From the NCBI GenBank assembly GCA_030407315.1, contig JALQPE010001902.1:124001-188000 (forward strand): a stretch of 64,000 nucleotides of DNA, in the 5' to 3' direction. Below the pieces are notes generated by a model, which worked only from the letters and a program-made list of their open reading frames with translations, searched no databases and was not told where the DNA came from. This DNA comes from Asparagopsis taxiformis. Lineage: Eukaryota > Rhodophyta > Florideophyceae > Bonnemaisoniales > Bonnemaisoniaceae. Shown here one piece after another: positions 1 to 31,382 of this stretch (the stretch's first letter is position 1; each line of letters starts with the position of its first letter). The position numbers and the translations under genes were made by a program.

Positions 1-660
1 GCTGTGTGGTGCTGCTTTTTTTTGTACTTACAGGTAGTGACAAGTCTATGTTCTGGCAGTAGAGTAATGCAGTGGAATATGATGACAGCAGACATGCTTC
101 GAGGCTGTGTATTCTACTGCCTGTGGAAGCGAGTGGGGACAGTAAATTATGATGTCTGACGAAATGTGTGAAAGCAATGAAATGAGGTGCTGATAGTCTC
201 TGGGAAAAGCTGCCTGATAGTACTGCTTTATGATACGAAAAGTGCTACCGTACCGTGCTACTTGCCGTGGTGGAAAGTGCTGCCGTGCTCTACTACTTGC
301 GTATGTGTAAATCACTGCCACGCTGTACTGCTCCAGGATATGTGAATTGCTGCCCCACAGCACTACAAAAAGTAGTAGATTTTGATGTATTATAGAGCTG
401 TCCAGATCAGCGTAAAGTACTGTCTGATAGTGTTGTACTCGACAGGGGCATAGGACAGTACCAGTTACTGCCTGTGGCAGTGCAGTGTACTACCTGGAAG
501 TGCTACCTGTGGCAGTACATTTCACTACCTGGAACTAGTGCTTGAGACAGTACAATTTACTGCCGGGAAGTCTATACTGAACCAGTAAATTGTAGTGCCT
601 GGCGGTACTGACTCGGACAGAACGGGAAAGTAGTAGAATATGATGCCTAGGGTAATACTT
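1..660. repeat. Subterminal-type repeats, GGCAGT/ACTGCC-rich
   Basis: Short degenerate units built on CTGCC and GGCAG (for example ctgtggcagt, tactacctgg, gcagtaca) recur in both orientations through this stretch. The same vocabulary occurs at 25,340-25,722 and 28,557-28,960, where it directly adjoins CACTAC ends, and at 58,318-59,060. I read it as the left subterminal region of the large element that ends at 25,722. I did not find a CACTA end here, so the true left end is probably upstream of the window. No gene is supported. Confidence 0.5.
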
Positions 661-2050
661 TCTAGTGCCTACAATTGATGTTCAGGACGATAGAATGAGG
701 TGGAAATGCCATTCCAGCCGCATGTTCAGGCATCTGGCTACGAAATGTCGGGCAGAATGGAGTATCTCTCTCGGTGGTCTTCATAGAAGTGTGTAGGGAT
801 AACCAAGTGTGATCTAAAAGGATGTCAGAATTTTTATGTAGCAAGGACAACGATGCCTGAAGGAATGTTTCAGTTCTATCATTAGACTAGACTACTCATT
901 AAATCGAACTATCGTATCTAAAATCTTACTATCTCTACAACCAGGACTATTGTGCAAGCAAATCGAGTTCCTCGCTGTTTCAAAACTACATGTGATGTTC
1001 AGACAGGAGGGAAATAAACACCATTACAGATGATTTGCAACAGGTTAGCAATCGGATATAGAAAAGTATTGTAAAGGATGAGAAGAACATGAGTATGAAT
1101 GGAATGAACAAACTTACCATCATTGAACTATTTTTGCGTGCAAAGGTATTGGTTGTAGGTTGGAATGACGAAAGCTTGCAAGCTTTCGTCATTCCAACCT
1201 ATAACCAATACCTATGCCAGAATCATTTGCAATCAATAGACTAGAATAGGATCAGCGAAGAACGATATTTATGGTTAGTGCACTATCTTTCATGGAAAGC
1301 ATGTGGAAAGAAATGAGAGAGGGGAAAGATACCTACTCGACAACGTACCAGCCTTACCTGTCATCTTCATGATAACCGGATGATGAAATGGTCCTATACG
1401 TCGCGCATCAACAGCCTTAAATAGACAGCTCATCCACTCATAATGACCTCGTCGTAACTGGAAGGCAGATGATTTGGCAGACGATGATGTGGCAGATGAT
1501 TTGGCAGCGGATGATCTGTCAAATTTTCTGGACGTGATAAATTAGCAGAAATAGAAATCATGCCCCTACGCAATGTCAAACCAACCTAAAAGTCTTGGTA
1601 TTGATGTTTAGCTGCATACTGAAGGAGAAACATCGAATAAATGCTGTAAATTAGAGTAGTAGACAATCCGAAAGAGAATTGCAACCGTGTTCTCATCTAT
1701 ATATAGTTTATTACCATAACAAGATTACTATTGAGGCCTATTATACCATGTACTGAAGCTAAATTGTAAATGATTCGTGTATTTCATTCAGAAAAGGAAG
1801 CAGGAATCGTTGGAGGCATTAAAGATCGCTGAAGAACCCAACATGGGAAATCAAGTCACCTGTTCCTTGAGTTAGGTAGGACACTATTCAGTGTGAAGTT
1901 TTCGATAAGATGTAACGGTAAGAAAATATAGGTACTATAAACTATTACAGTGGCCTGGTTAAAAAGAGACGGATACCATCTCATTAGTTGCCTACTAGTT
2001 GACATTAATCTACAATTTGTGCAAAGTTCTCTCGAATCCAAAGAGAAGAG
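661..2050. other. Non-coding leader upstream of the transposase
   Basis: No coding region is supported; open frames here are short and compositionally random. The only clear structure is the hairpin at 1144-1213. The stretch probably contains the promoter and 5' leader of the transposase gene that starts at 2051, but I cannot assign a TATA box with confidence. Confidence 0.4.
1144..1213. repeat. 70-bp near-perfect palindrome
   Basis: Two arms of about 35 bp meet at GCTTGCAAGC with one mismatch (ggttgtaggt against acctataacc). There is essentially no loop, so it would extrude as a cruciform or fold as a long RNA hairpin. It does not share sequence with the other palindromes of the window. It could be a foldback or MITE-like remnant. 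Confidence 0.8.
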
Positions 2051-5000
2051 ATGAAACGAACAGCTGTTCGGAAGAAAGGTACACCTCGAAGAACCCGGAG
2101 AAGGTTTGAATCATTGCCAATCCCATACGAAAGTGGGACAAGGCACGAAAATGGGGAAACCCCGCTAGTTTCGAACGAAACATTCGAGGTTCACGCCGAT
2201 ATACCGGACGAAAACGTCGGAAAAGCATCTGCTGAAGACGAGAATATTTCTAGTGGCAATGGAGAAGAGCACATTGCATTTTTTGAGGCTGGAAAAGTTA
2301 CGAGAGAAGAAGAAACTATAGGCTCTGAGGAAAGCTCGGCCGAGAGCTGTGATGACCACGACGGAGAAGAGGCAGCGGAAGATGACCGCAGACTTGTGGA
2401 TAAACTGCTGACCTGGCCAGTATTCTCTGCAATAATATTGCTTAGTGGAACGCTACGGATGAAACGCAAGGACTATGAAGGTATGCGTGAGATGTCTAAT
2501 TTCAAGCGGGACATTTCGGATCAAGCACCTAGCGACTCGTACATGAGGAAAGTCATTTTACCGTTCATTCTGAAAACATGTTTCCCACAAAGCATGGATA
2601 CAACGTGTGAAATAGATGTAACAAAAAGCGGCTCTAGGCTTGGAAAGATGTCTCCAGGACTGTCTAGTAGCCGTAGAGCTCATTGTACTACATCGGTACG
2701 AGTCGTGCTACCGAGCACATGGGCGGAAAGGGATATACAGACCGGACCCATTCTGGACTGCATAAAGTCTAGTAAAAGGGATAGTAGTGATGAAAGAGAA
2801 GATGAAGCATATCAAATTGCTTCAGAAAGTATTGAAAACTCTTTCATTGTCAAATGCCGTTCAGCTGTTCTGAATGACCCATTCCATCGCATTTCGGTAA
2901 GTGCATCAGATCATGACGGTCACAAGATGCACAGAAAGGTATACGCCCGACATGGAGACGAGTTGAGGATCATATGTATGCCGACGACAAATCAAGAGGC
3001 CCTGGTGGCTAAGCTGGGAGGAGCCAGAACGAAACAGGGAAAGAACATCGAAACTGGAAAGAATTCTAGGAGCAGAAGAAGTTTTACAGCAAGGAGTGAC
3101 TGGAGAATTGAAGCTATCATCATTGCAAGTTATCTTGCAACCGGAGAAGAACAACAAGAATCAAATATGGAAGATGTGATAGACCCGCAAATCGATGCAA
3201 TGGAAGAAACTGAGAAAAGAAATGCGAGGCGTGTCGTCTCCACCACAACGCTCGACGGAGAACATTGCAACAATGATATTCGGGCAGGTGACGCTATCAC
3301 TCTGTTTCGGCCAAAAAGTAAGTCTGATGGGAGCACATTTGAAGAGTTACTACTCGTGAACAGACATCTGAAAAAGGGACGCTCTGAACATGCGACTTTT
3401 CTCATTTGCTCCACAAGGGGAGCAACTGGGCAGCTACATCGCGAACAAATTCGGGTGAAAGACGTCCAGCTCATAGGAGCTCCAGACAAGAGGTCTAGAT
3501 GGCACCCCGGCTCTAAACGTATGGATGCCTGCAGTGAGGGGAATCTTTCAGATGGCAGGAAATATATCGTATACCGATTTCTGCTATATGCTGATGACTT
3601 CCAGCCGTTCACAAGCCGGAAAGGAAGTTTTGGTGGCTGCTATATGCTTCCATTAGGCATACAGCCAAGCAAGAGAGAAAGCTTCCACGCAGTCCGCGTT
3701 CTTGGATTCGTTCCCCCGGGAGTTTCAACAAATGTTGTAATTGAGAGAGTTGTACCCGACATTGTGAAGGGAAGTACAGACGGTTTTCCAGCGAAAGATG
3801 CAAATGGAGAAGATGTGGTCATATTCCTGGATCCTGTTGGATTTATCGGAGATTACCCAGCTGTTTCGCATACTCTGGATGTCCGTGGTCACACCAGTAA
3901 TACACCATGCCATAGCTGCATTTTCGAAAAGCAAGATATGAGCAGCAGTGGAGGTTCACGAAATGCATACACAGCATTGCTAAACAGTCAGATGAGTACG
4001 CATGCCCGAGGAATGCACCGAAACAAGCTTGTGAGGGAAGTCGCATCGCAAGATCAGCTCAAAGTTCTTGGACTAAGCCTAGATCCGATTGAGAATAAGG
4101 CACTCCATAATTTGAGTGAATCCCTTAATCGTGTGCGGAGAGGAGTTCCTACAAACGAAGAAGGAGTTCCAGTTGTTCCTTGTCAATTCGATCCATATCG
4201 CTCTGCTGTAGTTGCCCCAGACCATCTGCTCTCCGGACTGGCTCAAGATGTGATGAATGCCACAATCACCGCAGCAACACCTGTACTTCGAAATGTTGCG
4301 GAAACAGTTCTACTGAATACCCTCCGAATGTTCTGTTTGAGTAGTCAGAGTCAGGTATTCGGGCAGAACTACCTATTATCGATGAACATGAGCGATATAT
4401 TCGCTGTTCTCGTTGTAGCTCCCCAAGCATTTTATTCGGCATTTCGTATCGTCATCGGGAACTCTTGGGACGGGTATGAAAAACTTGAACGTATTCTTCG
4501 TTTGCTGAAAAAGTTTCAAATGGTTGTTGCCAGCATTCGATTCATCCCAACATGGTGGATAGATGGACTTGAGTCAACCAGGAGGTTCGAGGCCGAGAAT
4601 GGCGGACGTCATGACCACATTCTAGCTCTTGTTTCAGACTATATGAAAGAACTGCATGAGGTATGCAAGAAGGATCCTATTGCAATGAAACATCTGGACA
4701 AACCGAACATGCATCGGTTGATAGAATTTTGCGTACATACATTACCAGCTTTTGGAGCTGCGAAACATGTGGAAGAGCTTTTATTCGAGAGAATGCACCA
4801 GCCTCTTAAAAGAGGGGTTCGAAACTCGAACCATAAGAATGAACATCTGTCATCAATGGAGCTCATCATGGCCGATGACTGGCTCGCACGAATAGCCATC
4901 ACGCTGGGTGCGGTAGGTCACAATACAAAACAATGGACGTCTGCCGATTGCAGACGCGTGTATTTTGCACTAGGAAAAGGAATTTCGGAGAGTCCACATG

Positions 5001-5752
5001 CGACAGAAGAGGCAGCAAAAAGATGCTTCTTAAGTCCTGTATTCCATCTCATATCAGAGAGGAGCAGTACTATGGTGAGCACCCACTGTCCAATCACGCG
5101 GTGGCGAGGGGAATCTGTTGAAGACGCGAAAAATGTTCCGGCAGAAGAAACCGTCATGATGGCAAGGATACGTAAAGCTTCTGAAACTTTTCTCAGAACC
5201 AGACAGGTAAACGGGTCTCAACATGGTGAACGACTATGGTGGCTCACTGCTGCACAAAGAGTGCGCACTAGTCATGAGGGATCTGAGAGCGAATCGAGGT
5301 TAGGGCGTGCTGAACCTGGAAGCATCATTCAAGCAGTGTGCAAAGATGGATGGTATGATGCTGGTATAGTAGTACCCGCCCATAGCAGGACGAGCATGGA
5401 GGAATTCACATGTTCCAGACGTGTCCTTTTCGTCACATTGTCCTTTTTTATTGTGGTAGGGCAAGGAGAGGAGAAGAAGGCAAAGAAATGGAAGCAGAAA
5501 ACTCCATATGCTGTCTGCATTCCCTTGACATGCACTGGAGACGGTATGTACCGGAAAGGTGGGAATGATACTATAGTTCACGTTGAAATGAACGACGGGG
5601 TCCGAGAAGTTTTGCACGTACATAACTGCGAGTCAGGAGTTTGTTCATACGATAGACAAAGTGGCATTGTAGAGCACAATAGTGATATTCTTTCTGGTGG
5701 TGAAGTGAGCGTCTTAACTAGAGAAGATGGATACCCACCACGTTCAGCATAG
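2051..5752 (+). CDS. Tnp2-like (CACTA/Plavaka-type) transposase, putative
   Basis: Intact 1233-residue frame. It probably catalyses excision and integration of the surrounding element in the nucleus. The N-terminus is basic (KKGTPRRTRRR) and followed by an acidic disordered stretch (about 25-115). The recognisable core includes LLYADDFQPF (about 511), a GSFGGCYMLPLG strand, the DPVGFIGDYPAV block (about 592) and HTSNTPCHSC (about 613), a C-x-x-C after a GDYP motif as in large Tnp2-like transposases. The C-terminal third (FGAAKHVEELLFERMHQPLK) resembles the helical end of these enzymes. I recognise the family from these blocks only and cannot place the DDE triad. Kyakuja-Dileera-Zisupton type is the alternative. 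The start is the first ATG after an in-frame stop-rich leader. It is the only transposase in this element and lies next to its left subterminal repeats, as expected for an autonomous copy. Confidence 0.65.
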   Translation: MKRTAVRKKGTPRRTRRRFESLPIPYESGTRHENGETPLVSNETFEVHADIPDENVGKASAEDENISSGNGEEHIAFFEAGKVTREEETIGSEESSAESCDDHDGEEAAEDDRRLVDKLLTWPVFSAIILLSGTLRMKRKDYEGMREMSNFKRDISDQAPSDSYMRKVILPFILKTCFPQSMDTTCEIDVTKSGSRLGKMSPGLSSSRRAHCTTSVRVVLPSTWAERDIQTGPILDCIKSSKRDSSDEREDEAYQIASESIENSFIVKCRSAVLNDPFHRISVSASDHDGHKMHRKVYARHGDELRIICMPTTNQEALVAKLGGARTKQGKNIETGKNSRSRRSFTARSDWRIEAIIIASYLATGEEQQESNMEDVIDPQIDAMEETEKRNARRVVSTTTLDGEHCNNDIRAGDAITLFRPKSKSDGSTFEELLLVNRHLKKGRSEHATFLICSTRGATGQLHREQIRVKDVQLIGAPDKRSRWHPGSKRMDACSEGNLSDGRKYIVYRFLLYADDFQPFTSRKGSFGGCYMLPLGIQPSKRESFHAVRVLGFVPPGVSTNVVIERVVPDIVKGSTDGFPAKDANGEDVVIFLDPVGFIGDYPAVSHTLDVRGHTSNTPCHSCIFEKQDMSSSGGSRNAYTALLNSQMSTHARGMHRNKLVREVASQDQLKVLGLSLDPIENKALHNLSESLNRVRRGVPTNEEGVPVVPCQFDPYRSAVVAPDHLLSGLAQDVMNATITAATPVLRNVAETVLLNTLRMFCLSSQSQVFGQNYLLSMNMSDIFAVLVVAPQAFYSAFRIVIGNSWDGYEKLERILRLLKKFQMVVASIRFIPTWWIDGLESTRRFEAENGGRHDHILALVSDYMKELHEVCKKDPIAMKHLDKPNMHRLIEFCVHTLPAFGAAKHVEELLFERMHQPLKRGVRNSNHKNEHLSSMELIMADDWLARIAITLGAVGHNTKQWTSADCRRVYFALGKGISESPHATEEAAKRCFLSPVFHLISERSSTMVSTHCPITRWRGESVEDAKNVPAEETVMMARIRKASETFLRTRQVNGSQHGERLWWLTAAQRVRTSHEGSESESRLGRAEPGSIIQAVCKDGWYDAGIVVPAHSRTSMEEFTCSRRVLFVTLSFFIVVGQGEEKKAKKWKQKTPYAVCIPLTCTGDGMYRKGGNDTIVHVEMNDGVREVLHVHNCESGVCSYDRQSGIVEHNSDILSGGEVSVLTREDGYPPRSA

Positions 5753-6021
5753 AGTGTTCCAGCACAGTGTTTAATACATCAGTAAACTTTCGTAATTCAT
5801 TTAGCAGCAGTCCTGATCAAGTCTTCCAACAAATGCTATACAAAATTTGTACATGTCGTTTGAAGAATAGTGTGGGATTTTGTTCCATGCGCACAAATAA
5901 AGTGTGTTTTGCGAAGAGCGTACGCACTTACGTACGTATGATGCCATTGGTACTAGAGATGGAGCCGCGAGTTGCAGGACTCCTAGTTCCACAAAGTTGA
6001 GTTCGCATAATCCAATGGAGA
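5753..6021. other. Intergenic gap after the transposase
   Basis: Non-coding sequence between the transposase stop codon and the first tandem array. It contains AATAAA at about 5895, which could be a polyadenylation signal. Nothing else is visible. Confidence 0.3.
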
Positions 6022-6716
6022 GCTGGCACCTGGCCAATGAAGTGGAAAATAATACCCGGTATAATTTTCTGGCTCCAGTGACAAGTGGAGTATTGTGACT
6101 GATGGCTGTCTGCTGGCCAATGGGGAGCCGGCACCTGGCCAATGCAGTGGAAAATAATACCCGGTATAATTTTCTGGCTCCAGTGACAAGTGGAGTATTG
6201 TGACTGATGGCTGTCTGCTGGCCAATGGGGAGCCGGCACCTGGCCAATGCAGTGGAAAATAATACCCGGTATAGTTTTCTGGCTCCAGTGACAAGTGGAG
6301 TATTGTGACTGATTGCTGTCTGCTGCCAATGGGGAGCCGGCACCTGGCCAATGCAGTGGAAAATAATACCCGGTATAGTTTTCTGGCTCCAGTGACAAGT
6401 GGAGTATTGTGACTGATTGCTGTCTGCTGCCAATGGGGAGCCGGCACCTGGCCAATGCAGTGGAAAATAATACCCGGTATAGTTTTCTGGCTCCAGTGAC
6501 AAGTGGAGTATTGTGACTGATTGCTGTCTGCTGCCAATGGGGAGCCGGCACCTGGCCAATGCAGTGGAAAATAATACCCGGTATAGTTTTCTGGCTCCAG
6601 TGACAAGTGGAGTATTGTGACTGATTGCTGTCTGCTGCCAATGGGGAGCCGGCACCTGGCCAATGCAGTGGAAAATAATACCCGGTATAGTTTTCTGGCT
6701 CCAGTGACAAGTGGAG
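6022..6716. repeat. Tandem array 1: 104/105-bp unit with the CCCGGTAT palindrome, 7 copies
   Basis: The core aaaataatacccggtat starts at 6046, 6151, 6256, 6360, 6464, 6568 and 6672, giving periods of 105, 105 and then 104. Each unit carries CCAATG twice and GGCACCTGG just upstream of the core. The right half of the palindrome is degraded (TATAATTTT or TATAGTTTT instead of TATTATTTT). The array lies 265 bp upstream of the ATG of the first ParB-dioxygenase gene, a promoter-proximal place. Long open frames across it on the minus strand are translations of the repeat, not genes. Confidence 0.95.
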
Positions 6717-6980
6717 TACTATGATTCATGGCAATGGGATGGTTTTGGGAACGAAGGAATTGTGTGTGGGAAGTCCTTCGTCGAGGAATGACAGATGGCC
6801 GAATACAATTGGAGCGCGTGGAAGGTGAATCAATAACTGATATTTCACGTTTAAACGTGTAGGGAGATCGTTTCCCGCCAAATACCACCTTGAAAGAGGA
6901 ATATCTCTTGATCGTGTAGTCGGAGAGAAAAGGTGTCTTTGTCATCCTGAACGGCTTCTCTACGCGTCCAAATCTTTGCA

Positions 6981-10784: not shown

Positions 10785-12160
10785 AAAATTTTCAGTTCCT
10801 GAGAACAGGAGTCTGGCCGGGTATAAAGTTGGGTGGGTGTAGACCAAGTGCACCAACCCCATTGCCTGGGGGTACTCCGGATAACCTCAGCCAATGGCGT
10901 TGGTGCACCTGGCTTTTGGGAGGCCAAAATAATACCCGGTATTATTTTGGGTCGGTATAGACCAAGTGCACTAACCCCATTGGCCGGTGGTAGCCGGATA
11001 CCCTCGGCCAATGGCGTTGGTGCACCTGGCGTTTGGGAGGCCAAAATAATACCCGGTATTATTTTGGGTCGGTATAGACCAAGTGCACCAACCCCATTGG
11101 CCGAGGTTGTCCAAACTACCACCGGCCAATGGCGTTGGTGCACCTGGCTTTTGGGAGGCCAAAATAATACCCGGTATTATTTTGGGTCGATATAGACCAA
11201 GTGCACCAACCCCATTGGCCGGTGGTAGCCGGATACCCTCGGCCAATGGCGTTGGTGCACCTGGCGTTTGGGAGGCCAAAATAATACCCGGTATTATTTT
11301 GGGTCGGTATAGACCAAGTGCACCAACCCCATTGGCCGGTGGTAGCCGGATACCCTCGGCCAATGGCGTTGGTGCACCTGGCGTTTGGGAGGCCAAAATA
11401 ATACCCGGTATTATTTTGGGTCGGTATAGACCAAGTGCACCAACCCCATTGGCCGAGGTTGTCCAAACTACCACCGGCCAATGGCGTTGGTGCACCTGGC
11501 TTTTGGGAGGCCAAAATAATACCCGGTATTATTTTGGGTCGATATAGACCAAGTGCACCAACCCCATTGGCCGGTGGTAGCCGGATACCCTCGGCCAATG
11601 GCGTTGGTGCACCTGGCGTTTGGGAGGCCAAAATAATACCCGGTATTATTTTGGGTCGGTATAGACCAAGTGCACCAACCCCATTGGCCGGTGGTAGCCG
11701 GATACCCTCGGCCAATGGCGTTGGTGCACCTGGCGTTTGGGAGGCCAAAATAATACCCGGTATTATTTTGGGTCGGTATAGACCAAGTGCACCAACCCCA
11801 TTGGCCGAGCCAAACTACCACCGGCCAATGGCGTTGGTGCACCTGGCTTTTGGGAGGCCAAAATAATACCCGGTATTATTTTGGGTCGATATAGACCAAG
11901 TGCACCAACCCCATTGGCCGGTGGTAGCCGGATACCCTCGGCCAATGGCGTTGGTGCACCTGGCGTTTGGGAGGCCAAAATAATACCCGGTATTATTTTG
12001 GGTCGGTATAGACCAAGTGCACCAACCCCATTGGCCGAGGTTGTCCAAACTACCACCGGCCAATGGCGTTGGTGCACCTGGCGTTTGGGAGGCCAAAATA
12101 ATACCGGGTATTATTCCTAGTTTCTCAAGCCAGGTGCAGTGCACTCATTGGCCGAAGCCC
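10785..12160. repeat. Tandem array 2: 117-bp unit with the AATAATACCCGGTATTATT palindrome, 11 copies
   Basis: Palindrome copies start at about 10926, 11043, 11161, 11278, 11395, 11513, 11630, 11747, 11860, 11977 and 12095. The last has the opposite centre (ACCGGGT). Each unit is an extended imperfect dyad: CCAATGG, GTTGGTGCACCTGG, the palindrome, then the mirror of these (CCAAGTGCACCAAC and CCATTGG). Units alternate between ggttgtccaaactacc and ggtggtagccggatacc linkers, suggesting duplication in blocks of two or three units. The array fills the space between the two ParB-dioxygenase genes. Open frames running through it on both strands are repeat translations. Confidence 0.95.
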
Positions 12161-15879: not shown

Positions 15880-17125
15880 CTGGCAGCCAATGGCAGAGCT
15901 GCACTTGGGCTGGCCACACCCAAAATAATACCCGGTATTATTTTGGCATGGCAAAGCCCAGGTGCAGCAATTCCATTGGCTGCCGCTGCGTTCATGACAG
16001 CCAATAGCAGAGCTGCACTTGGGCTGGCCACACCCAAAATAATACCCGGTATTATTTTGGCATGGCAAAGCCCAGGTGCAGCAATTCCATTGGCTGCCGC
16101 TGCGTTCATGACAGCCAATAGCAGAGCTGCACTTGGGCTGGCCACACCCAAAATAATACCCGGTATTATTTTGGCATGGCAAAGCCCAGGTGCAGCAATT
16201 CCATTGGCTGCCGCTGCGTTCATGACAGCCAATAGCAGAGCTGCACTTGGGCTGGCCACACCCAAAATAATACCCGGTATTATTTTGGCATGGCAAAGCC
16301 CAGGTGCAGCAATTCCATTGGCTGCCGCTGCGTTCATGACAGCCAATAGCAGAGCTGCACTTGGGCTGGCCACACCCAAAATAATACCCGGTATTATTTT
16401 GGCATGGCAAAGCCCAGGTGCAGCAATTCCATTGGCTGCCGCTGCGTTCATGACAGCCAATAGCAGAGCTGCACTTGGGCTGGCCACACCCAAAATAATA
16501 CCCGGTATTATTTTGGCATGGCAAAGCCCAGGTGCAGCAATTCTATTGGCTGCCGCTGTGTTCATGACAGCCAATAGCAGAGCTGCACTTGGGCTGGCCA
16601 CACCCAAAATAATACCCGGTATTATTTTGGCATGGCAAAGCCCAGGTGCAGCAATTCCATTGGCTGCCGCTGCGTTCATGACAGCCAATGGCAGAGCTGC
16701 ACTTGGGCTGGCCACACCCAAAATAATACCCGGTATTATTTTGGCATGGCAAAGCCCAGGTGCAGCAATTCTATTGGCTGCCGCTGTGTTCATGACAGCC
16801 AATAGCAGAGCTGCACTTGGGCTGGCCACACCCGAAATAATACCCGGTATTATTTTGGCATGGCAAAGCCCAGGTGCAGCAATTCCATTGGCTGCCGCTG
16901 CGTTCATGACAGCCAATGGCAGAGCTGCACTTGGGCTGGCCACACCCAAAATACCCGGTATTATTTTGGCATGGCAAAGCCCAGGTGCAGCAATTCCATT
17001 GGCTGCCGCTGCGTTCATGACAGCCAATGGCAGAGCTGCACTTGGGCTGGCCACACCCGAAATAATACCCGGTATTATTTTGGTATGGCAAAGCCCAGGT
17101 GCAGCACTATCATTGGGCGTGGGCT
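15880..17125. repeat. Tandem array 3: 114-bp unit with the AATAATACCCGGTATTATT palindrome, 11 copies
   Basis: Palindrome copies begin at about 15922, 16036, 16150, 16264, 16378, 16492, 16606, 16720, 16834, 16948 and 17059, a strict 114-bp period apart from a 3-bp deletion inside the tenth palindrome. Unit sequence outside the dyad is unrelated to arrays 1 and 2, but the architecture is the same: CCAATAGC, CTGCACTTGGG, the palindrome, then the mirror (CCCAGGTGCAG and CCATTGG). It lies between the 3' ends of two convergent genes, so it is not a simple promoter array. Open frames across it (up to 431 codons) are repeat artefacts. Confidence 0.95.
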
Positions 17126-17265
17126 GACTGGCACCGCTCAGCAAATGAAAGTCTGTTATTATCGCTCAGGTAGATTGTAGTACTACAACGTTGTACGAGT
17201 TCAGATGCAAGACTTTTTATTGCTGATGGTACTCTTGATATCTGTAATTGGACGCGTATACTGTC

Positions 17266-20200
17266 CTACTTCTCTGCAGTCCAGTAGCGCGATCCATAGT
17301 CAACGAATATCTCTTCCCCAGCTCGAACATCTACTACAACCTGCGCTAGGATGAGATCAGGTTTTGCTACTGCATACTTGAAGTCGCAAGTAGGATTGAC
17401 GTCTTTGTGAACTCGGAACTCTGCATTTTTTCTGCGTTGCACATTTGCAACTCTCTCCATTCCGTCAATGGTCCTACTGTCGTTGAGGTAGCTGCAGACA
17501 TTGTATTCCGCTGGTACAAGATATATCTTGTCGACCGGTGCTTCTTCTCCGATGACACTGGTCTCCATCTCCATGTTGAAGTTTTGGAATCTTTCACCAG
17601 TACAACCGAACCCGTCCGGTCCGTACAAGCGACTGCGTTGCGGTTCATTCTCCCCAATCTTCCCGTATAAAATTGTCCCATTATACCATCCAACAACAGA
17701 GCCCCTCTCTAAATCTTCTGCGGCAAAAACCCCCAATCCTCCCTCTCGAACTGTCGATGCAGCAACAATAACGTTGTGAAAGGAGGCATCTACTGCAAGC
17801 ATCATCTCAGGGTCAACGGAGAAAACCTTGCCTAAATCTTCTACGCCCCATTCATTCATTGGGACTTCGGCAAGTCTTCGGAGCATGCTTTGATCCCGCG
17901 CAACAGAGGAGACAAATCGCAACATATGCAGTGGTAGTGAAGATACCGACGGGAATCCATCAGGCGCATCACTTCGATGTCGAAGTCTTTCACTTCCTAC
18001 ATTGCTCCTTATCGAGTAATTCCATTCTTTGTTAGCGAGAATACTCGATATGTCATTTTTGGTTGCCTCCCCAAAAACTCCATCTCGACCTTGCCTAACA
18101 AAGCAATCCAGCAACAACGGCTGAGCTGATCCATGGCATGTGGCGTCTTTTTCACATCCAATAAACTTGCGATACAGACCATCTCTCATTGTCATGCAAG
18201 CTATTGCAGTAGAATACGTTCCGGAGAATAGATCTACCACAATGTCTCCTGGCTTTGAAAACCTTGAAATAAGCTCTCGAAGTATGGACAGAGGCTTCTG
18301 CTCCGCACGTAGCCTTTTGTCTTCGAAGTTCAATGACTCACCAGGTCCGAGCTTTGGGCAGTTGTCGATTGCGTTCACGTACCCTGGATGTCGTGAAAGG
18401 TCACGGTTATGCAAAGAATAATCAACCATTTCAAACGCGGCAGCTCCCATCCCACGTTTGAAACTGTGCACAACAAACTCGTGAATGTTGTGTAATGAAC
18501 ACGATTTGTTCATTGGGTTTTGGATGAATACGTAGGGACGACGGCTTAGAATGAGAGGAACATCGTCTGTACGCATGGATTGTTCCCCGCTTTCTGCATT
18601 TTGAAGAGCTTCTCCCCACCCAACCAACTGTTTGATACTGGAAAATATCAGGGCATGTCCTCCAGGGCGCAGCATTCGAGAAATGTCCTTTCCAGTACGA
18701 AACATTTGTGCGCTATTGATGTCATCATAGTCTGAATTGGTCTTGCCTTTCTCCCTCCGCGTGTTGAAGGGTGGATCGGTGAGCACAAGTTGTGCTTGTC
18801 CATCAATAGTATTCCCTGAAAGCATGCCAATGGAATCAGTGTTAACCCGGTGCACTAACCTCGAGGCTGTACAGTTGTAAGCCACGCAAAATCTCTTCAT
18901 GACCTTTTTCAATTGCACAATATGATCCGGTACCCCCTCTTCCTCACCCACTGCCTCCGCTGACGGTGTATCCTCCGCAACATCTTGCATAACCGTGTCC
19001 ACTGCGGACGAAGCCCTCCCATCCATGCTGGATGTATACTGGGATCCAGAGTCATTGGTAGGTTTCCTTCCACCTGTACCTAAACGGCGAGTGCTGTGCT
19101 GCATTGATTCATTCGACTCAAGACGATCTCTTTCTCGAGAAAGAGATCTGGATGCTGCGTTGCGCTGTTCAGTCTCGTAGAGAATTTTCAAGTCGCAGAC
19201 ATCAACTGGCTTCACACGCATTTCACGGTTCCAGTTCTTCCATACCTTGAGTCTTTCGTGACCATCCAATGCGATGGATTGTTCTATTCTTGCTTCGATG
19301 AAGGCGTTCAATCCGAACCGGTCAGGCTGATGGAAAAATTTAGTGCGCAGCCCTTCCATCTGGTTCGTACTTGATCCGAATACATCAATGCCTATCATAC
19401 AGTCATACACAGACACTAGTACGGCTTCTGTCAAAGACCTCAACCTTGCATCAACAGAGATATCCAAAGTGCCTGGATAACCTGCATTCTCGCGGAGTTT
19501 CACTACCGGGGACGGAAGCAGAAGATCTGAGTAGTGGTCAGGATGTGCCCACCCGTCAGTACGATTAGCAAGACAGATGAATTGGAATTTCTCAGAGTCG
19601 AAAACCATGTATGGGCGACACATCATGTAGGCGCTTTCGAAGCCCAGAATCATCGCTGTTGTATCCCAGGCAGACATGACCCTTTCCAAAACGACACCCA
19701 CAGACTCTCCGTTTGCTCTTGTGCGCTGGAAAGGGGCGAATGTAGAAGTCTCTGTATCCCTCCCAGTTCTACGACGCTTCCTACCCCGGCGAATGGGTGC
19801 ATTTCTGCGTCTAGTGAGGGCAATGTGCACAAATGAAATCATAAACATCAGCCTTCCAAATACTTTGTCTTCTTCTGTTAATGTTCTACCCTGTGCACTT
19901 CTTCCAGAACGAAAATACTCACAGGTGAGGACTTCGCGACACAATGGAGAAGCAATTTCACCACTTGTAGACATCCCAAACAACTGCTCGCCGACTGATG
20001 CTCTTTTCTCGAGAGATGTGGGAAACTCCTTCATCGCAAAATTGTTCTGAACTTCAACCGGCCTTCCCCATACAATACAGAACAACTGCCACAGACAGCG
20101 AACCATTTTGGGATTGGGTTCTTCTATGCGACTGTAGGGGCGAAGCACACGAAGAATTGACAAGCAACTCTCGTACTGTGGCTGCCTCAGCACAGTTTCT

Positions 20201-20775
20201 GCCAAATCTTCGCGCTGAGATCCCACGGCGAGCCATCGCCTAATGGATGGCATATTCACGTCGCGAATTGTAACCATGCTTGAGCTCCCTTGTTTTTCAC
20301 CTGCGTTTCGCTCCCAGTACCCATCTCTAAGATCCAAAGTAAGATTCAGGTACTCAATGAAAGTCATCCTCTTCTGCCTGGATGCCATATCGTTCGCGTT
20401 TGATGCTTTCACACTATCTAGAAGGAAAGCAGCACTTGTAATCGGAGATATGTCGACTTCTTCTTCAATCATAGGAACAGTGAAATCACGCGGAAGCTCA
20501 CCGTTCTCTATGAGCTTGATTACAGCTTTCGAACGATGCGCACCATCCAGCACCTGTACATCACCGTCAATGATCCGACCGGTAATTGGGTTGTTGTCAT
20601 TGTAGCCGTAAACCTGAATGCTCTCGGCAATAACATCGACGTGCCTGTAGTCGATTTCTCGAATCTCGACATATCTTTTGATCTTGAATGGGTCGATGTG
20701 CAATAGCCCATTGCGCCGCTCACCATGAAGGGGACGCCCAGAGGTGCTCGCTGGATTTCTCTTCTCAGAGGCCAT
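17266..20775 (-). CDS. ParB-like / amino-DNA-methyltransferase / SET triple fusion
   Basis: Intact 1169-residue frame. A ParB/sulfiredoxin-like domain at the N-terminus (about 25-110) has VLDGAHRSKA (D77-R81). A helical region follows (110-590) with RRGRKRRRTG as a likely nuclear signal. The DNA methyltransferase has motif IV LTDPPFNTRR (about 665-674), LRPGGHALIFSS, and then motif I GDIVVDLFSGTYSTA (about 840-855). The catalytic-before-SAM order is the beta class of N6-adenine/N4-cytosine enzymes. The C-terminal SET domain (about 1000-1165) shows GGLGVFAAEDL, NVCSYLNDSR and GEEIFVDYGSRYW. ParB-methyltransferase fusions are common in phages; adding SET makes a eukaryotic chromatin protein. 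Expected roles are amino-methylation of DNA and lysine methylation of a protein. It is divergent from the 462-aa gene at 21507 and shares its promoter region. A damaged copy is at 33502-36705. Confidence 0.85.
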   Translation of the reverse strand: MASEKRNPASTSGRPLHGERRNGLLHIDPFKIKRYVEIREIDYRHVDVIAESIQVYGYNDNNPITGRIIDGDVQVLDGAHRSKAVIKLIENGELPRDFTVPMIEEEVDISPITSAAFLLDSVKASNANDMASRQKRMTFIEYLNLTLDLRDGYWERNAGEKQGSSSMVTIRDVNMPSIRRWLAVGSQREDLAETVLRQPQYESCLSILRVLRPYSRIEEPNPKMVRCLWQLFCIVWGRPVEVQNNFAMKEFPTSLEKRASVGEQLFGMSTSGEIASPLCREVLTCEYFRSGRSAQGRTLTEEDKVFGRLMFMISFVHIALTRRRNAPIRRGRKRRRTGRDTETSTFAPFQRTRANGESVGVVLERVMSAWDTTAMILGFESAYMMCRPYMVFDSEKFQFICLANRTDGWAHPDHYSDLLLPSPVVKLRENAGYPGTLDISVDARLRSLTEAVLVSVYDCMIGIDVFGSSTNQMEGLRTKFFHQPDRFGLNAFIEARIEQSIALDGHERLKVWKNWNREMRVKPVDVCDLKILYETEQRNAASRSLSRERDRLESNESMQHSTRRLGTGGRKPTNDSGSQYTSSMDGRASSAVDTVMQDVAEDTPSAEAVGEEEGVPDHIVQLKKVMKRFCVAYNCTASRLVHRVNTDSIGMLSGNTIDGQAQLVLTDPPFNTRREKGKTNSDYDDINSAQMFRTGKDISRMLRPGGHALIFSSIKQLVGWGEALQNAESGEQSMRTDDVPLILSRRPYVFIQNPMNKSCSLHNIHEFVVHSFKRGMGAAAFEMVDYSLHNRDLSRHPGYVNAIDNCPKLGPGESLNFEDKRLRAEQKPLSILRELISRFSKPGDIVVDLFSGTYSTAIACMTMRDGLYRKFIGCEKDATCHGSAQPLLLDCFVRQGRDGVFGEATKNDISSILANKEWNYSIRSNVGSERLRHRSDAPDGFPSVSSLPLHMLRFVSSVARDQSMLRRLAEVPMNEWGVEDLGKVFSVDPEMMLAVDASFHNVIVAASTVREGGLGVFAAEDLERGSVVGWYNGTILYGKIGENEPQRSRLYGPDGFGCTGERFQNFNMEMETSVIGEEAPVDKIYLVPAEYNVCSYLNDSRTIDGMERVANVQRRKNAEFRVHKDVNPTCDFKYAVAKPDLILAQVVVDVRAGEEIFVDYGSRYWTAEK

Positions 20776-21506
20776 CGAGAAATAGATTCTTCACCTCAAT
20801 CAGCCACCAGCAGAAAACAATCTTCTCTCCTACCTGGCGTTAAAAACCTTCGGCAACAATCTTGATAAACCTTAAATGCACAGTTAAAGAGTTAACCTGA
20901 ATATTTTCAGGTATACTTTGGCTAGGTAGGGTACGTAATGAGGAATAATTAGGTTCTTCGGCGGCCTTTCAATACAATTATTTCGCCAACGGACATTTCC
21001 ATTTTTGTTTTGAATTTGAAGTCCCCTCGAGAGATTGAGTTTGAAATCTGCCATCGGAGATTTCAAAACCAATCTCTTGAGAGGACTTCATCTTCTGTTC
21101 GAACTTGTAGACTCGTTCTTACAACCAGTATATAAATATACACATTGATTTCACTGCATCATTCTCGATCCCTGCGTCTCTTTATACATACACGTCTAGG
21201 TTCCGTTATATTGCCACAGCGAAAAATACACCCAATCTACTGGTAATGGCTTCGAGCAGCTCGGAATAAGATCTTTATTATATGGTGATGAATGTTCAAG
21301 AGAGATGATCATCACGATGTTGGTCTCCCATGTCGCTTGGGACAGGTGTTAGTAATTTATAACCGTTACGAGTTATGCAAGTATAAAAATAGTAACCTAC
21401 CAATTTTCTCTCTATCATTCCACACGGATACAAGCTGTACAGTTTCGTCATCTTTCCTGTTTCCTCAGTCGATACCTCTTCCATTCTTTTCCTGGGAATA
21501 CCCATT
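20776..21506. promoter_or_regulatory. Divergent promoter region between the methyltransferase-SET and 462-aa genes
   Basis: 731 bp between two divergent start codons. It holds TATAAATATA at 21,131-21,140 and a 72-bp inverted repeat at 21,018-21,089. It is the only intergenic space of the element without a copy of the AATAATACCCGGTATTATT palindrome. The same region is conserved in the inverted copy at about 32,771-33,501. Promoter function is inferred from gene orientation and the TATA-like word. Confidence 0.5.
21018..21089. repeat. Imperfect inverted repeat in the divergent promoter
   Basis: GAAGTCC...TCGAGAGATTGAGTTTGAAATC is followed by a short centre (TGCCATCG) and the mirror GAGATTTCAAAACCAATCTCTTGAGAGGACTTC. 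Arms are about 32 bp with a few mismatches. It is preserved at 33,189-33,260 in the inverted copy. It may be an operator read in both directions or a transcribed hairpin. Confidence 0.8.
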
Positions 21507-22895
21507 ATGCAAGACCCAACAGAGTTTGTCTCCGAAGGATCAGTCATTGAAGTAGAATGGAGTTTACGAACGAGAGGAAGGAAACAGAAAAAGGTTTGGT
21601 GGGGCGCCAAAGTTTTGAGTACTGCCAAGCCGGACGCGTCCGGAGAACATCGTTTGACTGGAAACTTGTTTGTTACGCTGCAATATCAATCTGAACACGG
21701 TTTCGACCAGTCAGTCTCTACAGCAAAATTATTCAAGAACAATTCGCTGCTGGACATTGACTCTGGAAACATGCTACGTTGGAGGTTTGGAGAGCAACTA
21801 GCACTAGAGCAGACGATCTCGTCGGCGGGTGAAGACAGTTTCCATAAAAAAGACTGCAAAGAAAACATGTTGAGTCGATCTAAGTCCGAGCCGCGCTTAG
21901 TTTGCGATGAGAGTCCTCCTGGTCCTAACATCAATGAGGACATATCCAAGCTGTTTCAAAAGGTATCCTACCTCGAAAGGCAGATTTTCAACTGTCGCGG
22001 TTCATCAAGCGCTACTGGACCCATCTTCGGAAACATTGTGTGCGACTACCTGTTCCAGAGAGTTGGCTTAAAACTGGACAAACCCCTGTCCTCCAAAATC
22101 ACGAAGTCTGAAACAGGCCGGGAAGTGAGCTCCTTGGTGCAAGACTATGTGACGGCAAGAGCAGATTGCTCGCTTGAACAGTTTTTACAACTTTCCAGGC
22201 TATGCGAAGAGAAGAACAACCCAAACACAATTTTCCTGCCGAGCGTCGAGGCGGTTCGAATTTCAACTGGGAGAGATAAAGAGCTATCGATCCACTTTGG
22301 AACATACTATGACCTCTGCAATACTTTAGCTCCTTCCATGTCTACATGCACGAACTCTACTATCCTCAAGTGGAAGAAAACACGACACGATTCTGGGTCT
22401 TCTGTCATTAGAGTTTTGGGAACTCTAGCAGACAGTGCTTCAGAAGATTCTATTCCATCTACAAAGGCTGTTCTTGTTGGTTCCTCTTTATACAGGAGAT
22501 CTGAAAACATGAGTAGTACTGTCGTTCTTACTCGAGAATCTGATGAGTACGACTATGTCAATTGCAGCTATTCGTATCCTTTGGAAGCTCGCTTCCTCTC
22601 AAGTCGAGAAATGCAAGAGAACTTTGAGCTGCCGGACAGCAAAAATTTCAAACTGGCCAACTCGTTCTCACTGACCTGGAAACCTGTTCAAGGCCCTCGT
22701 CCATATGGAACTTTCGAGCGCGTTCTCAAGAATGTTGTGTTGGGAACTGCATACTTGAACCTCCCAGCATGCATTTTCAGTGGACACACCATCTGCAGCG
22801 AGCTAGACACAATTGGACATGACGTTATCGTTGGACAGAATAGTTCCCCTGTCGATGCACCTCATCCTACCGTACACAATGTCGCCTCCGAGTAA
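21507..22895 (+). CDS. 462-aa cargo protein of unknown function, possible Tudor-like N-terminus
   Basis: Intact frame; I do not recognise the family as a whole. Residues 8-95 look like a small beta-barrel of the Tudor/SH3 kind. They have alternating hydrophobic strands with GSVIEVEWSL, a KKVWWGAKVLS strand (double W, then GAKV) and a NLFVTLQYQSEHGFDQ strand, ending in LRWRFGEQLA. That would suit a reader of methylated chromatin encoded next to a SET methyltransferase, but this is inference. Residues 150-330 are helical (FQKVSYLERQI, SSLVQDYVTARADC). The C-terminal third has strand-rich segments (VVLTRESDEYDYVNCSYSY). It is divergent from the triple-fusion gene and convergent with the coiled-coil gene. 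A broken copy is at 31383-32770. No counterpart was recognised in the second gene set. Confidence 0.6.
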   Translation: MQDPTEFVSEGSVIEVEWSLRTRGRKQKKVWWGAKVLSTAKPDASGEHRLTGNLFVTLQYQSEHGFDQSVSTAKLFKNNSLLDIDSGNMLRWRFGEQLALEQTISSAGEDSFHKKDCKENMLSRSKSEPRLVCDESPPGPNINEDISKLFQKVSYLERQIFNCRGSSSATGPIFGNIVCDYLFQRVGLKLDKPLSSKITKSETGREVSSLVQDYVTARADCSLEQFLQLSRLCEEKNNPNTIFLPSVEAVRISTGRDKELSIHFGTYYDLCNTLAPSMSTCTNSTILKWKKTRHDSGSSVIRVLGTLADSASEDSIPSTKAVLVGSSLYRRSENMSSTVVLTRESDEYDYVNCSYSYPLEARFLSSREMQENFELPDSKNFKLANSFSLTWKPVQGPRPYGTFERVLKNVVLGTAYLNLPACIFSGHTICSELDTIGHDVIVGQNSSPVDAPHPTVHNVASE

Positions 22896-23040
22896 AACGT
22901 TTTCTATCTTTTCTAGATGGGTCTACAAGACTGTTTAGAGTTAGTCAACCTCGATTAAGTCGATGGTATCCATCGATACATGCTCCGTATCTTTCTGGCC
23001 TGTTCCTTCGTCCAGGGACTGTCTGCATTCTGTAACAATG

Positions 23041-23215
23041 ATTGCTCTCCACTTGGCAAAATATCCCTGAAAATAATACCGGGTATTATTCTTAGGTTTC
23101 GTCCAGGGATCGCCTGTAGTCGGTACGAATGATTGCCCTCCACTTGGCAAAATATTCCTCAAAATAATACCCGGTATTATTTTCCGCACTACTCTGCCAG
23201 GTGGAGCTACGGCAT
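23041..23215. repeat. Pair of CCCGGTAT palindromes in a convergent intergenic space
   Basis: Two palindromes at 23,070-23,090 (centre ACCGGGT) and 23,161-23,183 (centre ACCCGGT) stand 91 bp apart, in opposite orientation of the unpaired central base. Flanks carry the same accessory words as the arrays: CCACTTGGC on one side and CCAGGTGGAG followed by CATTGG on the other. They lie between the 3' ends of the 462-aa and 507-aa genes. An equivalent pair is at 31,094-31,209. Confidence 0.9.
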
Positions 23216-23500
23216 TGGATGGGACTGCACAGGCCCCGAAGGTACTAGAGGCGTGCTCAATGACAGGGTAAAACTCTTAACCGTAGTAGACATGACGCTT
23301 TCTAGTCGCAGAGTGAGCTGAAAAAAAAGAACGATAGCTATTGTTTCCAGTACACCATGTAGTACGTAGCATGCTGCGGTGCACCTTTTCCACGCACATC
23401 CTAGACAGTTTCACATCTAAAGGTTTTTATTTCTCTTAAGTCTCTCGTAGTAGTCGGTTCCCTTCAAAGGCTATGAAACTTTACTTCTACGCCTCCATTA
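23216..23500. other. 3' intergenic gap
   Basis: Non-coding remainder of the convergent space up to the stop codon of the 507-aa gene. Nothing further is visible. Confidence 0.3.
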
Positions 23501-25024
23501 TCAATCTTCCTCATCAAGGAAAACTTCAACGTAGCTTTCACTCCCATCTTCTTCATTTCCATGTCCGCTATCCTCCTCAAACGCGGTACTACGCTGTTCC
23601 AAGTGTTGTTCATCGAATTTTTCGTTAGTAATTGTCAGTACATCTTCACAGAGATGCCTCTTACAGATTCGGTCACTCGGCAACATCGCCTTTCCTAATT
23701 GTTTGAGCTCGTCTTGTACACTTTCTTCGAAGGTCTGACCTGATTGTACCTTGAAAATTCCTAGAATCCCGGAAGCGATTGCATAGACAAATCTGAGTGA
23801 ATTGCAGGAACGTCGCAGGAAAACCATTCTACTCGTGCATTGAAGGAAAGCAATTGCAGTGTTCAGGGCTACCTCCAGGATATTGATTCTCCTTCGAATC
23901 ATCCTTTTGGCCACACATCCCGATATCTCGACTTCGTACTGAATGATGACAACCATCTCTTTCCGCTCAGCGATGAATTGTATCAAGATCTCGGAATTCT
24001 TGTCATCCACAACTTTCCGTTCCTCAGGCCTTAGATTTCCGTTGGTCACACGGGTATCGGGGATAACATCCATATCTCGAATGAGATCGTGAGTTGGAAA
24101 CTCGAAAGTGATAGAGGCGTCCGTTTCCAACACTAGAGCGAACCCCAGTTCGACAAGGAATCGATGGCGCACCTGCTCTCTAGACTTGTTCAGGAAACCG
24201 AGCACCTTTGTCAGCGCAACTTTCGTAACAGCCAAAGATATTTCACGCTTGCTCAACTGTCCACCATTTCCATCTGTTTTCCTCCGCTTCCTAGCCCCTC
24301 CGTCAATGCTTCCTGCAGGCTGGTTTCGGCCATCGCCAGTGGCACCATAAACAACTTCTTCGATTATTTTGTCCGGAATGTACTTGTTCTCCTTCCAGAC
24401 GTTGAACGCATTCGAATCGCGTCCAGAGCTCGAGCCTTCCACTGTACGGCCTGTACCCGACTTTTCCTTCTGAATGTTCCGCAGGAGAGACATCACCACT
24501 TGGAATCGAAGCTCGATGTTGTTCTTCCCGGTGTTTGATTGGAACACATCCCTCTTGTCATTGCTCTGCTTCGCAAACATCATTGCAGAGAGCAACCTGC
24601 AACCACGGAGGTCGTAGATTCCTTGGTTGGTGTAAATTGTCGCCCCAGCATCAATCTTGTCGACCAGCAAAGGTACAACAGTTCCAAATACTGCACACAG
24701 AAAATTGTAAGAAAACGATAGTTCTGCTGACTGCGAGATGCGCAAACGGTCCCTGTCCTTGTCAGTCATCCCCTTCTTCGAAGTGCCCTGACTCTGCTGT
24801 AATAAACCATCACAGATGTCTTTCACACCCTGTAGTTCCGTTACAATAAACTCGACGCGACTCATCAGCTTTTCGATTTGCTGGCGTTGGGACGTTCGAT
24901 CATCGTCGATTTCATCCATCCTCTCCCCAATACGACGAACTTCCCCAGTCACTGTCCTGAATCCCTCTCGAATAATCCCTGCTAGGCAGTCATTTGGATT
25001 TTCCTCACGACGCTGAGATTCCAT
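23501..25024 (-). CDS. 507-aa coiled-coil cargo protein, unrecognised
   Basis: Intact frame with no family recognised. The N-terminus (about 15-80) has a heptad pattern (FRTVTGEVRRIGERMDEIDDD, RQQIEKLMSRVEFIVTELQGV) typical of an oligomerising coiled coil. A basic patch GARKRRKTDGNG at about 245 could direct it to the nucleus. It is followed by helical segments and strand-rich segments such as MVVIIQYEVEIS, and ends in an acidic tail. It sits last in the element, directly inside the right subterminal repeats. A frameshifted copy is at 29253-30775. The gene at 51713-53963 occupies a similar place in the second set and also starts with a coiled coil. A DNA-end-binding accessory protein comparable in role to TnpA of CACTA elements is possible but unproven. 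Confidence 0.65.
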   Translation of the reverse strand: MESQRREENPNDCLAGIIREGFRTVTGEVRRIGERMDEIDDDRTSQRQQIEKLMSRVEFIVTELQGVKDICDGLLQQSQGTSKKGMTDKDRDRLRISQSAELSFSYNFLCAVFGTVVPLLVDKIDAGATIYTNQGIYDLRGCRLLSAMMFAKQSNDKRDVFQSNTGKNNIELRFQVVMSLLRNIQKEKSGTGRTVEGSSSGRDSNAFNVWKENKYIPDKIIEEVVYGATGDGRNQPAGSIDGGARKRRKTDGNGGQLSKREISLAVTKVALTKVLGFLNKSREQVRHRFLVELGFALVLETDASITFEFPTHDLIRDMDVIPDTRVTNGNLRPEERKVVDDKNSEILIQFIAERKEMVVIIQYEVEISGCVAKRMIRRRINILEVALNTAIAFLQCTSRMVFLRRSCNSLRFVYAIASGILGIFKVQSGQTFEESVQDELKQLGKAMLPSDRICKRHLCEDVLTITNEKFDEQHLEQRSTAFEEDSGHGNEEDGSESYVEVFLDEED

Positions 25025-25289
25025 CTTCCGTCAAAATTCGCCTTCGCCTCTCGTTCCAATCGCAGAGTGTCACTCCAAACGCTTTTCCTGGAACTAGAAT
25101 GCTAGCAATAGTAACAAATAATGCCAACTACTCTACTCATATCCTCGGAAAACGACCGATTTTCTCCTACCTTTTTTGTAACGGTCATTTCCATGTGACC
25201 ATGCATCCTCTACACTTCTCACTACTAGTAGCTTCAGAATAGTTTCCTCTCTTCTCTACTTGAACTCACATGCGAACACATTGTACAAC

Positions 25290-25722
25290 CCTATCCTGGA
25301 CAACTATTGCAACATTGAATCTCAGAAAATACCAATCACCAATTACTATCAAGGCAGTACTTGCAGGCAGTACAATTCACTGCCGGAGCCAGTATATTTT
25401 ACTGCCTGATTCTAATGCCAGGTCATTTGCCAGGGCAGTACTGTACGGCAGTACATTCCATTGCAGAAATCATCAAAAATCACTGCATTGCACTACTGCC
25501 CTGTGGTACCAGCAAAAATTACTAGAATTTGCTATCGTACAGTACTGAATTCTGCTACATACCGTACTGCCAGGAAATTTTGTATTTTACTGCCTGCGGC
25601 ACTAGAACTGAAAAAATTAAAATAGTAATTTTACTGCCTCAGGCACTACATTGCTCAGGCAGTGATTTTTACTGCCTCAGGCAGTAAATTTACTACATTT
25701 TTTAATCTCAAACTCGGTAGTG
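25290..25722. repeat. Right subterminal repeats and CACTA-type end of the large element
   Basis: Repeated CTGCC/GGCAG words, including the palindromic ACTGCCTCAGGCAGT type, end at GTAGTG (25,717-25,722). Read on the minus strand the end is CACTACCGAGTTTGAG, matching CACTACTGAGTTTTAG at 28,557 with two differences in 16. Subterminal repeats in CACTA elements bind accessory transposition protein. The first bases outside the element are TTG; the partner target duplication cannot be seen. Confidence 0.75.
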
Positions 25723-31230: not shown

Positions 31231-31382
31231 GGGCAATCATTGTTACAGAATGCAGACAGTCCCTGGACGAAGGAACAGGCCAGAAAGATACGGAGCATGT
31301 ATCGATGGATACCATCGACTTAATCGAGGTTGGCTAATTCTGAACAGTCTTGTAGACCCATCTAGAAAAGATAGAAAACGTT

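Follow-up and report, generated by a model that had tools for sequence, protein, structure and literature searches.

The stretch of DNA analysed here, a window of 64,000 nucleotides from the red alga Asparagopsis taxiformis (contig JALQPE010001902.1, here C1778, positions 124001-188000), opens with a single CACTA-like element in which a transposase gene is combined with a set of genes for candidate marking enzymes. The first copy of this element spans C1778:123442-149722 and is 26,281 bp long; the window holds all but its first 559 bp (window 1..25722, plus strand). The best explanation is a DNA transposon of giant size that moves by cut and paste and is related to the EnSpm/CACTA-Plavaka group, and we regard as evenly poised the proposal that this transposon has an address-and-mark system of its own. 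An initial annotation of the window had described one element with a transposase, two ParB-oxygenase-like, one ParB-methylase-SET and two accessory genes, and this gene set holds, all six open reading frames (ORFs) being open in copy 1 at the positions given below. Beyond the gene set, we observed private palindrome arrays in three families. The genome has light-harvesting (PF00504) and phycobilisome (PF00502) genes, the latter with 11 of 13 matches on a single contig, as fits a red alga.

Extension to the left located the CACTA end at C1778:123442, where the terminus reads CACTACTGTG, and the right end lies at window position 25722. Ends were scored across the genome (141.5 Mb in 3156 contigs) for the best 40 of 323 right-end and the best 40 of 354 left-end candidates of a first-look search. 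These match at 99-100%, and the element is present in high copy number; all 40 left ends match the terminus just given, and in the 39 right ends scored besides the query the match stops at query position 657-661. The termini CACTAC...GTAGTG form an imperfect 18-bp inverted repeat, CACTACyGwGTyTGArAT, and have the 5'-CAC...GTG-3' form typical of the EnSpm/CACTA superfamily. GGCAGTA, counted on both strands in bins of 500 bases, occurs 10, 2 and 3 times in the first three bins and 4 and 7 times in the final pair, with a single occurrence in the interval. The GGCAGTA/TACTGCC-rich part of the left subterminal region that falls in the window is 1..941, and the right subterminal repeats occupy 24942..25722 with the terminus GTAGTG at 25717-25722. 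The CACTA-type end and subterminal repeats of the initial annotation are in this way borne out at both ends of the element.

Thirteen left/right pairs among the 40 + 40 scored ends share contig and orientation at a spacing of 24.6-37.0 kb, further copies of the kind that the initial annotation had proposed to seek, and C718, C582, C2275 and C75 each hold both flanks of one site, 29.0, 25.9, 25.5 and 24.7 kb apart. These contigs bear on a very improbable alternative, in which the transposase belongs to one element and the cargo to another, and nested insertion or faulty assembly brought the two together. Near-identical copies are mixed in this chimeric assembly, where several contigs, C1778 among them, join flanks from different sites. 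Two findings would suit such a joining: neither copy 1 nor copy 2 on C1778 has a left and a right flank from one insertion site, and partners in the set of 40 scored left ends are missing for 27 of the 40 right ends scored. Against it stand the four contigs with both flanks, the transposase and methylase-SET genes lying on opposite strands and 9.0-14.3 kb apart on all 12 contigs common to both best-match lists, and a gene order shared with a family whose versions of these two proteins are 42-44% identical. Nor did the signs appear by which the initial annotation would have given the transposase to another element: CACTAC is found on neither strand between 5,752 and 17,570, and a copy with the right part alone, the only such copy examined (28557-36705), has its break within the methylase-SET gene at another repeat, not at a CACTA end. 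This copy 3 (28557..36705, minus strand) consists of the right part only, is 98% identical and stops inside its own P0004 gene, which is in pieces. Not all copies are intact, therefore, and in copy 2, which lies inverted on the same contig (C1778:83504-111941), the methylase-SET gene is split by a 1.58-kb insert (C1778:90851-92432, L010); with this insert set aside, the right third of copy 1 differs from that of copy 2 at 2 of 8148 aligned bases. Copy 3 breaks at 36705/36706, where the other repeat starts, and the first 47 bases of that repeat adjoin different sequence in L031 (87% identical) and may be the end of an unnamed element.

The transposase candidate, P0001 (2051..5752, plus strand; 1233 amino acids), is CMC/Tnp2-like, with DDF at 515-517, GDYP at 600-603, C620-x2-C623, CVH at 894-896 and FER at 912-914. 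The order DDF/GDYP/CxxC/CVHTLP/FER, which we take to be that of a Tnp2-type transposase, is kept in a 42%-identical homologue. P0001 is open in all 38 scored loci (the best 38 of 2105 candidates) and P0004 in all 40 (the best 40 of 3786), figures that describe the best candidates, broken copies such as copies 2 and 3 existing beside them. Upstream of the transposase gene, at 1156-1201, stands a 46-bp perfect palindrome, TAGGTTGGAATGACGAAAGCTTGCAAGCTTTCGTCATTCCAACCTA.

P0004 (17266..20775, minus strand; 1169 amino acids) joins a ParB-like domain, an N6_N4 DNA methylase domain with the motif DPPF and a SET domain. Pfam places it in PF01555 N6_N4_Mtase (1.2e-13) and PF00856 SET (2.2e-5, 25.3 bits against a cut-off of 22.4), and its N-terminus matches the phage ParB family phrog_1033 (1.3e-5) as well as phrog_4272, a family of unknown function (2.1e-7). 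A methylase-SET profile built from three families, in all of which the beta-class N6/N4 methylase motif DPPF or DPPY is present, found adenine methylases best in the PDB (DpnA at 9.6e-11, then MboIIA and CcrM), N4-cytosine methylases just at 0.009 or worse, and the histone lysine methyltransferases EZH2 (3.9e-4) and KMT5A. P0002 (6981..10505, plus strand; 1174 amino acids) and P0003 (12583..15552, plus strand; 989 amino acids) each combine an N-terminal ParB-like domain with a C-terminal domain resembling 2-oxoglutarate (2OG) oxygenases, which in P0003 carries H870xD872 and a distal H941. Their N-termini resemble those of other methylase proteins of this genome around a shared DGxHR (hhalign 78.7%, E 1.7e-5, in a single comparison), and on this motif we presume them to be ParB-like. 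In the oxygenase-like domain HxD is invariant in four of four sequences and the distal H is present in three; there was no Pfam Tet/JBP match that would indicate a TET/JBP dioxygenase.

The remaining two, P0005 (21507..22895, plus strand; 462 amino acids), with a 33%-identical homologue in the family of contig C44, and P0006 (23501..25024, minus strand; 507 amino acids), whose C-terminal 220 amino acids are 40% identical to a homologue there, are by sequence comparison conserved accessory proteins without an assigned fold. Pfam searches up to E 10 returned no match for P0001, P0003 or P0005, only a chance match for P0002 (E 1.5) and only matches below the curated cut-off for P0006 (best 0.0032). 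In searches of protein databases P0003 found no match, and P0004 and P0001 found no more than near-identical ENA copies; in the PDB, P0003 had three chance matches, the oxygenase profile none and the ParB-like profile two chance matches (E 0.66 or worse).

A distant relative of the element, family C44, was compared over 12.1 kb in three pieces. Its transposase is 42% identical to that of family 1 (the family of copy 1), the ParB end of the next gene 34%, the methylase-SET protein 44%, P0005 33% and the C-terminal part of P0006 40%. These five genes stand in the order and on the strands seen in family 1, the second gene being known there at its ParB end only. Between the two, dN (nonsynonymous divergence) is 0.54-0.79, and dS (synonymous divergence) is saturated for four genes and 2.7 for P0006; with proteins conserved while synonymous sites are saturated or nearly so, we conclude that the five genes have been kept by selection. 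Sequence comparison thus indicates that they are co-inherited in the distant family C44 and that the set travels together. In family 2, the third family, the window holds a ParB-like/2OG-oxygenase-like protein (40536..44744, minus strand) and a DNA methylase-SET gene in three frame pieces (46132..49591, minus strand), for which L072 has an open frame of 1080 amino acids; its product matches PF00856, as does the family C44 protein.

Each of the three families has its own palindrome in intergenic arrays. That of family 1, AATAATACC(C/G)GGTATTATT, forms four arrays of differing unit length, with 7 sites at 6012..6718 (104-bp unit), 11 at 10829..12115 (117-bp unit), 11 at 15884..17106 (114-bp unit) and 2 at 23007..23181 (91-bp unit). 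In 108 kb scanned, all 68 family 1 sites lie inside element copies; the exact 27-bp palindrome occurs 982 times genome-wide, against 0 for its reversed control. Palindromes with an arm of at least 8 number 30 in copy 1, against a mean of 0.75 (maximum 2) in 20 local base shuffles, and the other fetched sequence, 48 kb, has 11, two of them family-2 motifs. The palindrome of family C44, CTTACAGCAAAGTCATCGT(T/A)ACGATGACTTTGCTGTAAG, follows its transposase and methylase-SET genes, and that of family 2, TGTGCCGTACGGCACA, is present in 10 copies in intergenic repeats at 38735..51417. The number of sites in the first array varies among copies with near-identical transposase genes, from 7 in L050 to at least 12 in L052; in this comparison (L044-L053) the loci end 1.5 kb past the gene, and the variation may be real or assembly-derived.

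On bacterial chromosomes and plasmids, ParB genes lie beside clustered palindromes of 16-19 bp, the parS sites. The ParB-like genes of the red-algal element likewise adjoin clustered palindromes, which suggests by analogy that the arrays resemble parS; because they stand next to ParB-like genes and are family-specific, they may serve as addresses for the marking enzymes. The element differs from ParB-parS in that no ParA was noticed among its genes and its ParB-like domains are fused to enzymes. A second explanation, unlikely in our view though with a real chance of being right, is that the marking genes protect the element in some other way or limit its copy number: the methylase would mark freshly replicated or excised DNA to time transposition, SET would repress host or rival genes, and the palindromes would be terminators or insulators. 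The layout speaks for terminators in family 1, where every one of the six genes has an array on its 3' side (one behind P0001, one behind P0002, one shared by the converging ends of P0003 and P0004 and one by those of P0005 and P0006) and no array is found in the divergent gap between P0004 and P0005; in family C44, too, arrays come after the transposase and methylase-SET genes, at their 3' ends. However, a conserved 19-27-bp core common to units of 104, 117, 114 and 91 bp is more than plain terminators need, and so is a core that changes from family to family; the family C44 gap between P0005 and P0006 has no array, and in family 2 some sites lie upstream of the methylase-SET gene.

The address-and-mark proposal runs as follows. 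P0001 would cut at CACTAC/GTAGTG, helped by a protein bound to the subterminal GGCAGTA repeats, perhaps P0006. The three ParB-like proteins would bind the palindrome arrays as ParB binds parS; there the ParB-methylase-SET protein would write adenine (or N4-cytosine) methylation on the element and add a histone-lysine mark, while removal or alteration of methyl marks there would fall to the ParB-oxygenases, so that the element could stay transcribed or insulated despite host silencing. Self-marking of the element by its own enzymes is what we infer; the oxygenase would have DNA as its substrate, and the enzymes would have the element as their target.

Several observations weigh against this proposal. 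P0001 has no Pfam match and its structural model reaches a predicted local distance difference test score (pLDDT) of 29.5. P0002 and P0003 match no ParB family themselves in Pfam, PHROG or PDB searches, and the link between ParB-like domains and palindromes is one of co-occurrence only. The oxygenase domain has no significant sequence match in Pfam, PHROG or the PDB, and its AlphaFold model is unusable (pLDDT 35.9); a Foldseek search with this low-confidence model returned 2OG oxygenases in 10 of the first 11 rows, at E values no better than 0.047. In three families N-D takes the place of N-H in the SET domain, with the tyrosine retained; the canonical motif is, we assume, NHxC with N-H usual, and the replacement makes SET activity uncertain. 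In the window, P0001, P0005 and P0006 have no detectable relative in family 2, some of whose sites (49755-51417) are on the 5' side of the methylase-SET gene, while the P0005-P0006 gap of family C44 (L078) has no palindrome of arm 8. Finally, copy 3 carries transitions at 10 of 750 CpG positions against 31 of 2986 other C/G positions, no clear excess and so no trace of 5-methylcytosine for an eraser to remove. 5-Methylcytosine as the obvious target, or main mark, of the system is accordingly not supported, and the lack of clear CpG decay, in numbers that are small, fits an adenine-type methylase better.

Insertion sites place the element more closely and bear on yet another explanation. The sequence to the right of copy 1 (25723-26746) is its target, a DNA-methylase gene of a repeated family separate from the element. 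Uninterrupted copies of this gene (L068, L069) read ...CCGGATTGTCG..., and the left flank that matches the right flank of copy 1, ...CCGGATT, sits on contig C2931 (L014); from the empty sites and this left flank it follows that copy 1 is bordered by a 2-bp duplication, TT (25723..25724, plus strand). Seven further duplications, from left flanks mapped to the right half of the window with 0-2 mismatches per 18 bases, are TC, GC, GT, GT, AT, AA and GC. For nine of 13 mapped left flanks a partner was found in a set of 18 right flanks, one of them just 2 bases long, and for four there was none. The 3-bp duplication foreseen in the initial annotation has accordingly to be replaced by one of 2 bp, seen at eight of eight sites with both flanks and an empty site. 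Read on its own contig, C75 gives 1 bp, its left flank ending one A short, and GCT at C2588, a candidate for 3 bp, was rejected as a chance match in a chimeric contig, the right flank pairing with the left flank on C2257.

The EnSpm/CACTA superfamily has a 3-bp target site duplication, where 2 bp were seen here. The element does show the CA...TG ends and a duplication within the 2-5 bp of the CMCT clade, and C620-x2-C623 represents the C(2)C of that clade, lying between D601 and E913, which by analogy we take to be the second D and the last E of the catalytic residues, and kept in L077. No H(3-4)H pair between these two residues is kept in P0001 and its homologue, which share one conserved H896. 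Neither the Transposase_21 profile (presumably PF02992) nor the Plavaka profile (PF18759) matched P0001 in Pfam up to E 10 or the homologue up to E 1; P0001 shows weak similarity to the Plavaka proteins of this genome, aligning at 24.7% over 73 amino acids (E 4e-4 against a small ORF set; hhalign probability 3.7%). Of the CACTA membership given by the initial annotation, the CACTA-like ends stand, and a strict EnSpm/CACTA assignment is not supported, with no hidden Markov model match and no conserved H(3-4)H. CMCT is here the clade of EnSpm, Mirage, Chapaev, Transib and Plavaka, as named in the excerpted text of PMC12730594.

The same flanks could be read as traces of conflict, the cargo being a weapon between elements: family-specific methylation and palindromes would tell own from foreign copies, and unmarked rivals would be silenced or used as landing sites. 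With the window's own right flank excluded, 18 of 36 flanks of listed family-1 ends have matches in other parts of the window, and 13 of these end in family-2 sequence; the copy in the window interrupts a methylase gene of another family, and one family-1 copy (C718; L035, L059) lies inside the family-2 palindrome TGTGCCGTACGGCACA. We nevertheless hold this explanation to be improbable, several of the flank matches being repeats of one site and so not independent, and the genome being so rich in such repeats that landing in them may be chance.

The rest of the window is crowded with related sequences. A ParB-like/oxygenase-like remnant lies in pieces at 60752..62975 (plus strand), with a family C44 palindrome array next to it (63541-63947). 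The ends of family 2 were not found, and its ORF at 52542-53960, considered as a relative of P0005, showed no relationship on comparison. PF01555 is over the cut-off in 150 of 150 scored loci (the best 150 of 2605 candidates), and a SET match is missing in the other methylase families seen (L071, L073, L074 and the P0007 piece of the flanking family). A Plavaka transposase (PF18759, 7.8e-23) with a frame of about 1036 amino acids occupies 54075-56378. It was rejected as a part of family 2 and belongs to a separate family, its position relative to methylase genes not being fixed on the contigs common to both lists (judged by eye); this family is very abundant, with 123 of 123 scored loci over the cut-off (the best 123 of 1208 candidates).

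Transposons of this general kind have already been reported in algae. ParB-methyltransferase genes are described in transposons of green, red and brown algae, and red algae are reported to have giant EnSpm elements that carry a number of accessory genes, with reference to Petroll et al. 2025 on Bostrychia (PMC12477816, in excerpt). Compared by way of that citing description only, the Bostrychia elements resemble ours in host phylum, giant size, EnSpm-like nature, multiple accessory genes and ParB-methyltransferase. Sola1-1_Ec32 of Ectocarpus, 21.5 kb, is also a giant DNA transposon, with a 1104-amino-acid ParB + N4/N6 DNA methyltransferase gene on the strand opposite the transposase, but it belongs to the Sola-1 superfamily, and its description in the excerpt mentions no SET or oxygenase (PMC12477816). 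Fungal EnSpm, ESTA, Plavaka and KDZ transposons carry TET/JBP genes (Kojima 2025, PMC12730594, in excerpt) and are likewise of CMCT type, with a 2OG dioxygenase gene to which a role against silencing is ascribed, whereas the red-algal element has no TET/JBP match and has two ParB fusions, a methylase and SET. A transposon-borne SET histone methyltransferase is found in HarbingerS and MuDR transposons of Phytophthora (cited in the excerpt of PMC12730594), which are of other superfamilies, while the red-algal SET is fused to a ParB-like domain and a DNA methylase. DNA methyltransferase-carrying retrotransposons of Symbiodinium and charophytes may also methylate their own DNA, but they are retrotransposons with a C5 cytosine methylase, and their abstract mentions no ParB, SET or oxygenase (PMC5890265). 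Within the open-access literature searched, we found no ParB-methylase-SET fusion, no ParB-oxygenase fusions, no such conserved gene set in one element and no family-specific palindrome arrays. The view of the initial annotation that such an element is not described has therefore to be narrowed, since algal transposons with ParB-methyltransferase and, in red algae, giant EnSpm elements bearing accessory genes are already in print; what may be new is this exact combination of enzymes together with the repeated palindromes.

In its widest form, which we put forward tentatively and think somewhat less probable than its being wrong, the proposal is that each family has a private parS-like array with a ParB-guided writer (methylase-SET) and editor (oxygenase) that set DNA and histone marks on their own family only, a eukaryotic, sequence-addressed self-epigenetic system derived from a bacterial partition module. 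If this were true, transposon-encoded proteins would aim DNA methylation, histone methylation and mark removal at defined palindromes in a eukaryote. The control of a transposon over its own chromatin would then be directly testable, with family-specific sites and their readers side by side in one genome, and a natural sequence-addressed writer/eraser set would be at hand.

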